This document shows, one piece after another, positions 13,405 to 16,925 of a DNA stretch of 64,000 bases. Position 1 is the first letter of the stretch; each line of letters begins with the position of its first letter. Under the pieces are notes generated by a model that saw only the letters and a program-made list of their open reading frames with translations, ran no database searches and was not told where the DNA came from. Source of the DNA: Pseudomonas brassicacearum (GTDB lineage Bacteria > Pseudomonadota > Gammaproteobacteria > Pseudomonadales > Pseudomonadaceae). The stretch spans positions 2,445,430-2,509,429 of the forward strand of contig NZ_CP007410.1 in the NCBI RefSeq assembly GCF_000585995.1. The letters run 5' to 3'. The position numbers and the translations under genes are program-made.

Positions 13405-14085
13405 TCAGCAAACCCATGTCGCATGGTTGGGTAGGTCCAAATGTGCCTTTAGATAGCCCGCGAATTCGTCGCGTGGAATCGACCGCGCGCCCAGGCTATG
13501 CAGGTGTTCGGTGGGCATCTGGCAGTCGATCAGTACAAAACCGGCCGCCTTGAGGTGTTGGACCAGCGTCGCGAAGCCGAATTTCGACGCGTTGTCGGCA
13601 CGGCTGAACATGGATTCGCCAAAAAACAACTGCCCCATGGCCAGGCCGTACAAGCCGCCCACCAGCAGGCCTCGGTCCCAGACCTCCACGCTGTGGGCGA
13701 AGCCGCGCCGATGCAGGTCCAGATAGGCGGTTTGCATGGCGTCGGTGATCCAGGTGCCGTCGGCATAGTCCCGTGGCTCCGCGCAGGCCTTGATGACCGC
13801 CGCAAAATCCGTGTCGAAGGTCACTTCATAGCGCTGCTTGCGCAATAGCTTGCCCAGGCTGCGGGAGACATGCAGTTCGTCGGGAAACAGTACGGTGCGA
13901 GGGTCCGGAGACCACCACAGGATCGGTTGGCCCTCGGAAAACCACGGGAAGCAGCCGTGGCGATAGGCTTGGATCAACCGATCGGCGGACAGATCGCCAC
14001 CGGCGGCCAGTAATCCGTTGGGTTCGCGCATGGCTTTTGCCAGTGGCGGGAAATCGAAAGTGTTGCGTTGTAACCAAGTCAGCAT
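13405..14085 (-). CDS. aat: Leucyl/phenylalanyl-tRNA-protein transferase
   Basis: A 226-residue Aat, which transfers Leu or Phe from tRNA to N-terminal Lys or Arg and so marks proteins for ClpS-ClpAP. Typical motifs are [40 protein letters not shown] and [18 protein letters not shown]. Its upstream neighbour on the same strand would normally be trxB; here only a 14-codon remnant is present (14156-14200). aat may therefore be read from the old trxB promoter. Confidence 0.97.
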
Positions 14086-14155
14086 CGTTCATTCGGCTTG
14101 CAGTAGGGGAGGGCGGGCCCCGCCCACAAGCGAGAGCCCGACTGGAGGTTACCCG

Positions 14156-14200
14156 TCAAGCGGCGGGGATGTCATTGAGATACTGCTTCACTTCGCTCAT
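14156..14200 (-). pseudogene. trxB: Probable in-frame deletion remnant of trxB (14 codons)
   Basis: A complete mini-frame, MSEVKQYLNDIPAA then TGA, with a strong ribosome-binding site (GAGGTG six bases before the ATG). From memory, pseudomonad thioredoxin reductase TrxB begins MSEVKHSR and ends near AALDxExYLDD(I/L). This peptide therefore looks like the first five codons joined in frame to the last nine. In P. aeruginosa, trxB1 lies between ftsK and aat, exactly here. The alternative is an unrelated leader peptide for aat. What is seen is the frame and its start signal; the trxB origin is inferred from position and remembered sequence. Confidence 0.55.
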
Positions 14201-14519
14201 AAAAAACACCTCATAAGCCTTTGTCACAAAAGAGAATGCATGGTCCAATTAGCGCGGGTGTCCGCCGTTTCTGGCTAGGCTGTCACCCTGCGTGCGGGCA
14301 ATGCCTTGGGGCCGACAAACCCGTACAATGCTTGAGTTTTGCACGCAGGATGGGCTAAAGATCAAAAACTTCGGCGGCACCTGCGGTTTTCTGGATGCAC
14401 GTCACAGTGGTAAAAGTAGTACCGGTTGTGCACATTCACTTTTTTACCTGCTCGTCATGGGCAGTTTTTTATAGTCATTCAACAGATGGACGCGCCATTG
14501 GCGCAGGAAAAGAAGCGTT
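14201..14519. promoter_or_regulatory. Divergent region between the trxB remnant and ftsK
   Basis: 319 bases without a gene, locally AT-richer near 14380-14480. It must carry the ftsK promoter and the promoter serving the remnant and aat. I see no clear sigma-70 pair, operator or hairpin. Confidence 0.4.
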
Positions 14520-16925
14520 TTGAAGAAATCCACCGCAGCACCCAAAACAGTCGTTCCGCTCTGGCGCCAGCAATTGCACTACCGGCTCAAGGAAGGTGCA
14601 TTGATCGCCATCGGTGCCTTGTGCCTGTTCCTGATGATGGCCTTGCTGACCTACGGCAAGGACGATCCGGGCTGGAGCCATAACAGCAAGATCGAAGACG
14701 TGCAGAATTTCGGCGGTCCGGCCGGTTCCTACAGTGCCGACATCCTGTTCATGGTGCTGGGCTATTTCGCCTATATCTTCCCGCTGCTGCTGGCGATCAA
14801 GGCCTACCAGATCTTCCGCCAGCGCCACGAGCCATGGCTGTGGAGCGGCTGGCTGTTCTCCTGGCGCTTGATCGGCCTGGTGTTCCTGGTGTTGTCGGGG
14901 GCCGCGCTGGCTCATATTCATTTCCACGCGCCCACTGGCCTGCCGGCCGGGGCGGGCGGCGCCCTGGGGGAAAGCCTCGGCGACCTGGCCAGGAACGCCC
15001 TGAACATCCAGGGCAGCACGCTGCTGTTCATTGCCCTGTTCCTGTTCGGCCTGACGGTGTTCACCGACCTGTCGTGGTTCAAGGTCATGGACGTCACTGG
15101 CAAGATCACCCTCGACCTGATCGAGCTGATCCAGGGCGCCATGAACCGCTGGTGGGCGGCGCGCACCGAGCGCAAGCAACTGGTGGCGCAACTGCGGGAA
15201 GTCGACGACCGGGTCCACGACGTGGTGGCCCCGACGACGCCGGACAAACGCGAGCAGGCCAAGGTCAAGGAACGCCTGATCGAGCGTGAGCAGGCGTTGA
15301 GCAAGCACATGTCCGAGCGCGAGAAGCAGGTGCCGCCGGTCATCACCATGGCCCCGGCCAAGCCGCCGGAGCAGAGCAAGCGGGTGCAGAAAGAGAAACA
15401 GGCGCCGCTGTTCGTCGACAGCGCCGTCGAAGGCACCCTGCCGCCGATCTCGATCCTGGACCCGGCGGAAAAGAAACAGCTCAACTATTCCCCCGAATCC
15501 CTGGCGGCCGTTGGTCACCTGCTGGAGATCAAGCTCAAGGAGTTCGGTGTCGAGGTCTCGGTGGATTCGATCCACCCGGGTCCGGTCATCACCCGCTACG
15601 AAATCCAGCCGGCCGCCGGCGTGAAGGTCAGCCGCATCTCCAACCTCGCCAAGGACCTGGCGCGTTCCCTGGCCGTGACCAGCGTGCGGGTGGTGGAAGT
15701 GATTCCCGGCAAGACCACCGTGGGTATCGAGATTCCCAACGAAGACCGGCAGATCGTGCGCTTCTCCGAGGTGCTGTCGACGCCGGAGTATGACAATCAC
15801 AAGTCGCCGGTCACCCTGGCCCTGGGCCACGACATCGGCGGCAAGCCGGTCATCACCGACCTGGCGAAAATGCCCCACCTGCTGGTGGCCGGTACCACCG
15901 GTTCCGGTAAGTCGGTGGGTGTGAACGCGATGATCCTGTCGATCCTGTTCAAGTCGGGTCCCGAAGACGCCAAACTGATCATGATCGACCCGAAAATGCT
16001 CGAGCTGTCGATCTACGAGGGCATTCCGCACCTGCTGTGCCCGGTGGTCACCGACATGAAGGACGCCGCCAACGCCCTGCGCTGGAGCGTTGCCGAGATG
16101 GAGCGCCGCTACAAGCTGATGGCGAAGATGGGCGTGCGTAACCTCTCGGGCTTCAACGCCAAGGTCAAGGAAGCCGAAGAGGCCGGTACGCCGCTGAGCG
16201 ACCCGCTGTATCACCGCGAAAACATCCACGACGAAGCGCCGCTGCTGCACAAGCTGCCGACCATCGTGGTGGTGGTGGACGAATTCGCCGACATGATGAT
16301 GATCGTCGGCAAGAAGGTCGAGGAGCTGATCGCCCGTATCGCCCAGAAGGCCCGTGCGGCCGGTATCCACTTGATTCTCGCGACACAGCGGCCGTCGGTG
16401 GACGTGATCACCGGCCTGATCAAGGCCAACATTCCGACCCGCATGGCGTTCCAGGTGTCGAGCAAGATCGACTCGCGGACCATCATCGACCAGGGTGGCG
16501 CCGAGCAGTTGCTCGGTCACGGTGACATGCTCTACATGCCGCCGGGCACCAGCCTGCCGATTCGCGTGCACGGTGCGTTCGTCTCCGACGATGAAGTGCA
16601 CCGCGTGGTGGAGGCCTGGAAACTGCGCGGCGCCCCTGAGTACAACGACGACATCCTCAACGGTGTCGAAGAAGCCGGCAGCGGTTTCGAGGGCAGCAGC
16701 GGCGGTGGTGACGACGATGCTGAAACCGATGCGCTCTATGACGAAGCGGTGCAATTCGTTCTGGAAAGCCGCCGGGCCTCGATTTCTGCCGTTCAGCGCA
16801 AGCTGAAGATCGGCTACAACCGCGCCGCCCGCATGATCGAAGCCATGGAAATGGCCGGTGTAGTGACGGCGATGAACACCAACGGTTCGCGCGAAGTACT
16901 GGCGCCGGGCCCGATGCGCGACTAA
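14520..16925 (+). CDS. ftsK: DNA translocase FtsK
   Basis: An 801-residue septal DNA pump that clears and orients chromosomes and activates XerCD at dif. Four membrane segments lie in residues ~25-185, followed by a short charged linker (~190-310) and the RecA-like motor with Walker [10 protein letters not shown] at about 457-465 and Walker [10 protein letters not shown]. The C-terminal winged-helix gamma domain (after the Gly/Asp-rich spacer, about 735-801) reads KOPS. The start is TTG at 14520 ([10 protein letters not shown]), the only start giving the known N-terminus; AGGAAAAG lies upstream. Confidence 0.97.

Follow-up and report, generated by a model that had tools for sequence, protein, structure and literature searches.

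The window, that is, the whole stretch of 64,000 nucleotides that was analysed, belongs to a single-contig genome of 6.65 Mb whose nearest relatives are Pseudomonas. Between the diverging ftsK gene and aat (the name used in the first-pass annotation), a frame of 14 codons lies behind an intact GAGGTG on the minus strand, exactly at the position reported for it in that annotation. It reads ATGAGCGAAGTGAAGCAGTATCTCAATGACATCCCCGCCGCTTGA and translates to MSEVKQYLNDIPAA. The features of the locus are listed in Table 1. Throughout, we write trxB1 and trxB2 for the two thioredoxin reductase genes, as the two paralogues are named in P. aeruginosa.

Table 1 Features of the aat-ftsK locus in the window.
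Feature	Position	Strand	Basis
aat (leucyl/phenylalanyl-tRNA-protein transferase), downstream flank	13405..14085	-	ORF list; used to fetch relatives
14-codon trxB1 remnant MSEVKQYLNDIPAA, stop TGA	14156..14200	-	read directly; relatives' trxB1
Deletion joint, 16 or 17 bases into the frame	14183..14185	-	fewest mismatches against each of four relatives
GAGGTG, presumed trxB1 ribosome-binding site	14207..14212	-	unchanged against the four nearest relatives
Conserved 38-bp block P1, presumed promoter region upstream of trxB1	14212..14249	+ or -	spacer comparison
Terminator-like hairpin followed by a T run, close upstream of ftsK	14448..14464	+	scan; weak
ftsK, diverging upstream flank	14520..16925	+	ORF list; tblastn of relatives' loci

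The block P1 was recovered at no more than four mismatches in 70 of 72 spacers (the window's own included), both with and without trxB1. On the plus strand it contains TTGTCA-N17-TCCAAT, and it could therefore be a promoter towards ftsK, in addition to or instead of one for trxB. A sigma-70 scan of the ftsK-aat spacer found no promoter, and Rfam scans of the window and five relatives at gathering thresholds gave no match. The one terminator-like site observed in the spacer is within chance, with 0.7 expected in shuffled sequences. Just upstream of aat, the plus strand carries GGGGAGGG at 14106-14113, which fits the KOPS motif, GGGNAGGG; by eye, a similar G-rich run is present at the same place in other compared spacers.

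The trxB1 remnant and its joint

We compared the frame with the trxB1 genes of the four nearest relatives, P. brassicacearum (L039), P. kilonensis (L042), P. zanjanensis (L043), and P. thivervalensis (L044). In all four comparisons it consists of the first 16–17 and the last 28–29 bases of the 960-bp gene, with three mismatches in 45 bases to each relative. Reading of the alignment places all three mismatches in the 3′ remnant and none in the first 16–17 bases. The proposal that the peptide joins the start of TrxB1 in frame to its end was thus borne out, with both ends matching in these four relatives. Across the nine intact relatives of the clade described below, TrxB begins with M(S/N)E(V/A)KHSR and ends with EKYLDDIP(A/T)(V/A).

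What is missing relative to these genes is 915 bp, or 305 codons, in frame. The first five and the last eight codons of trxB1 are kept, and at the joint the CA of codon 6 (His in the relatives) is followed by G, the third base of the Lys codon that precedes YLDD, giving Gln. Judged from the relatives, the microhomology at the joint is 1 nt, and no longer direct repeat was detected. The relatives' sequence continues on both sides, without trace of a vector, marker, or recombination site, and with no restriction sites or foreign bases visible by eye. Searched as an exact pattern, the joint sequence occurred in one of the 284 loci compared, the window's own (L009), and thus in no other locus with or without trxB; within the window it occurs once, as against zero in 100 shuffles. 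With its 14 codons only, the remnant has neither the FAD and NADPH domains nor the CxxC. Judged by its sequence, it cannot encode a functional thioredoxin reductase, the CATC motif having gone with the 305 codons.

Loss of trxB1 across Pseudomonas and the remaining paralogue

The distribution of trxB1 was surveyed in two sets. The first comprised 80 relatives fetched through Aat (the best 80 of at least 584 confirmed matches), in which presence was scored by tblastn with the P. kilonensis TrxB as query, the intact trxB of L087 included. The second comprised 58 distinct Pseudomonas genomes, some overlapping the first set, after removal of the window strain's own row and eight that had been fetched twice. 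Of these best 80 relatives, 63 have a full-length trxB in the ftsK-aat interval and 17 do not, and in the second set trxB1 is found at the locus in 27 of the 58 genomes, the other 31 having no intact copy there. Loss in itself is therefore ordinary. The first-pass description of the deletion as unusual holds for the clean remnant, which does stand out, and not for the absence of the gene: most spacers without trxB1 are 320–550 bp long, and the other compared loci of this kind have longer, decayed spacers, in contrast to the single clean joint of the window.

A tree of 81 DNA rows, built by a quick method from 1446 bases counted from the start of aat, groups the window strain with nine relatives under a starred branch; trxB1 is intact in each of these nine, and members of the clade include P. 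kilonensis, P. brassicacearum, P. zanjanensis, P. thivervalensis, P. corrugata, and P. mediterranea. On this tree, the presence and absence of trxB1 require at least eight state changes, five of them forced by starred branches, and such counts alone cannot separate loss from gain. Losses did occur, since decayed pieces of trxB persist in several of the losers. In P. parakoreensis (L052:2405-2938, 177 aa) and P. fuscovaginae (L118:2464-2913, 149 aa), an open trxB1 frame still connects the former start with the former end, and in both the first active-site Cys has become Arg; these shrunken frames appear to be decay intermediates that stayed in frame. TrxB1 has repeatedly been dispensable in Pseudomonas.

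The paralogue that the first-pass annotation expected elsewhere in the genome is indeed present. We found one TrxB above the TIGR01292 cut-off, at C1:1097293, away from the scar; this gene, trxB2, is intact, and its product is 74% identical to TrxB1 and has CATC at the same residue. A DNA search for trxB1-like sequence elsewhere in the genome returned the paralogue (73% DNA identity) and one 41-base match, and no further long stretch. Each of the 36 same-genus genomes, the window strain's among them, has one or more TrxB proteins above the cut-off. Twenty of the 21 genomes without trxB1 at the locus (again counting our own) have one TrxB, and the remaining one (G031) has two; where trxB1 is at the locus, 14 of 15 genomes have two and one (G013) has a single TrxB. 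In this last genome trxB1 is kept (G013:C22:878527-879444) and no second TrxB was found at an E-value of 1e-90, a pattern that points to reciprocal loss of the paralogue. The scar is an ordinary paralogue loss, and the strain is useful as a natural trxB1 knockout.

Origin of the deletion

The 14 codons are very probably what remained after trxB1 lost 915 bp of its interior, in frame and by a natural event. The event would have been a simple illegitimate deletion with 1 nt of homology, tolerated since TrxB2 would take over thioredoxin reduction. The reading frame may have been preserved by chance (one in three), or because translation to the native stop spares the downstream aat. The 14-residue peptide itself probably has no function of its own.

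The first-pass annotation had allowed for either a natural or a constructed deletion, and the natural origin is the one that the data favour. In the remnant (YLND), Asn replaces an Asp shared by 91 of 92 distinct TrxB1 proteins from intact genes, as tallied by seeking ‘LD’ near their ends, the one exception being Glu; a change at so nearly invariant a position suggests a natural deletion that did not happen very recently. If the scar were laboratory-made, as a markerless in-frame knockout of trxB1, its clean joint, the retention of the frame and both termini, and the near lack of microhomology would be accounted for, as would the absence of the joint from all other loci compared. However, such a construct does not account for the Asn, many other species also lack trxB1 at this locus, and neither foreign bases nor a restriction site was seen at the joint, although a seamless construct would leave none. 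We consider a laboratory origin highly improbable. As points to be set against a natural one, a designed knockout looks alike, the scar is known from one genome among those compared, and three substitutions are few. Selection may also have acted on the short frame as a leader, in which ribosomes reach a stop before aat and aat is expressed from the trxB promoter. The ribosome-binding site, start, stop, and spacer to aat are all kept, and the decayed loci of P. parakoreensis and P. fuscovaginae are also open in frame; yet the frame is gone from other loci without trxB1, which keep aat (in L050, for example, a stop follows after six codons), and selection of this kind seems unlikely. A natural deletion thus remains our preferred reading. 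Overall, the first-pass deletion call was right as an observation and largely right as an interpretation.

A bipartite element inside trxB1

The unexpected part of the analysis is an element, here called E, that was lost with the gene in the window strain. E is a bipartite 30-bp sequence, TTACGACC-N15-AGTTGCA, in codons 81–91 of trxB1 (VYDHIHTAKLQ), located for example at L042:2202-2231 in P. kilonensis and at homologous places in relatives. At no more than three mismatches, E was found in all 17 trxB1 losers of the first set (best 80 of at least 584), exactly in 11 of them, with one mismatch in three, two mismatches in one, and three in two; only 15 of the 17 are informative, since long parts of trxB survive in L052 and L118, and losers that are related cannot be counted as independent. 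At the same threshold, the second set has E in 27 of 27 intact loci and in 21 of the 31 without trxB1. The positions flanking E are conserved in intact genes; in decayed loci most of them hold little information, apart from CG two bases before E.

We further examined 44 distinct trxB-less spacers, 15 from the first set and 29 from the second. E is present at no more than one mismatch in 28 and at no more than two in 32, while for control trxB windows more than 30 nt from E the corresponding maxima are 1 and 12 of the 44 spacers. Shuffled spacers gave a match with two mismatches once in 880 and never one with fewer. Within intact genes, 83 of 84 distinct sequences use TTG for Leu90, the next highest TTG share among the 27 Leu sites standing at 36%. 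By synonymous homogeneity, the three codons starting at codon 88 come fifth among 309 such windows; the constraint is thus remarkable for a single codon, but the three-codon stretch is not the only one of its kind.

Across the genus, 157 of 398 genomes contain E exactly, not all of these matches necessarily being at this locus, and a backward control occurs in five (counted from the table). Exact E lies on a contig other than that of the locus in two genomes (G007 and G026), and two others have two exact matches (G143 and G489). A looser form of E was matched in 41 of 145 genomes of the order, with a similar rate for the backward control by eye. A search allowing one mismatch, left out of the counts on account of its many control hits, gave two one-mismatch matches in the window genome, both far from the scar locus, and the strain's ftsK-aat spacer contains no match to E at up to four mismatches; the deletion that removed the interior of trxB1 took out E along with it. 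E is also missing at three mismatches from ten trxB1-less genomes of the second set (L161 and L169-L177), and it can therefore be given up. Eight of these ten spacers lack a CATTGTACG-type box near ftsK; as it is also absent from 4 of 27 loci that have trxB1 and E, it was rejected as a clean partner of E.

The distance between E and P1 is variable, at 10–124 bp in 94 distinct loci (those below 200 bp); in 93 other loci, essentially those with intact genes, it is 249–253 bp. The distances first looked phased (46, 57, 68, 79 bp and so on). A test on 27 entries, one per sequence cluster and distance, gave a best R of 0.43 for periods of 10.0–11.1, which was matched by 105 of 5000 random sets, and the peak lay outside this range, at 11.4. 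Helical phasing of E with P1 is therefore not claimed.

We regard E as likely to be a functional cis-element. More specifically, it is probably a cis-regulatory site, either an operator or a promoter, of the ftsK/trxB/aat region, and its loss would have changed regulation in the window strain. Its retention among largely scrambled neighbouring sequence, its excess over control windows, shuffled spacers, and the backward control, and the fixed TTG at Leu90 all argue for this reading. Against it stand the ten second-set losers and the window strain, which live without E, the modest rank in synonymous homogeneity, the lack of established phasing with P1, and the two uninformative loci and mutual dependence of the losers in the first set. 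The layout of E towards ftsK recalls ECF promoters, and we tentatively entertain an ECF-sigma-type promoter on the strand opposite trxB, read as TGCAACT-N15-GGTCGTAA, although we find this narrower reading doubtful. It is in line with two unlike boxes at a fixed 15-bp spacing, with the free distance of E to the flanking genes, and with some resemblance to the AlgU consensus, given in PMC7641640 as GAACTT-N16/17-TCTNN. By eye, however, E does not conform to that consensus, most copies having CAACT(T/C) and TC(G/A)(T/C)A, and its upstream box has TGCAACT in place of GAACTT. Moreover, exact E occurs at most twice per genome among those listed, unlike a sigma regulon. The AlgU/SigX literature among the matches listed does not include ftsK, and the count of ftsK is zero in the retrieved portions of PMC3875570 and PMC3597554. 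Literature searches gave nothing on trxB1 with ftsK in Pseudomonas, on the ftsK promoter, or on antisense transcription starts in ftsK/trxB; for GCAACTT with sigma factors in Pseudomonas, none of the matches listed evidently concerned E.

A signal within a gene normally escapes notice, since its bases are under the constraint of the protein as well. Here, the repeated loss of trxB1 separates signal from protein constraint, and makes E directly testable beside the cell-division gene ftsK: a 30-bp candidate signal inside trxB1 often outlives the gene. On balance, we favour the view that trxB1 throughout Pseudomonas embeds a regulatory sequence that would constrain synonymous codons and be retained after decay, that its remnants would be kept for the signal and not the enzyme, and that the window strain would be a natural knockout of both.

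Compared with known systems, the scar shares with TrxB (NCBIfam TIGR01292) at the aat-trxB-ftsK locus its start, end, place, strand, ribosome-binding site, and stop, and differs in missing 305 codons, CATC among them. Like the AlgU promoters in PMC7641640, E, taken on its ftsK-directed strand, pairs two boxes at a fixed distance of similar length; unlike them, its box differs at a fixed position, and it is nearly single-copy. Set beside the deletion of one of two redundant paralogues, the locus has its partner trxB2 intact, and the reverse case is found in G013.
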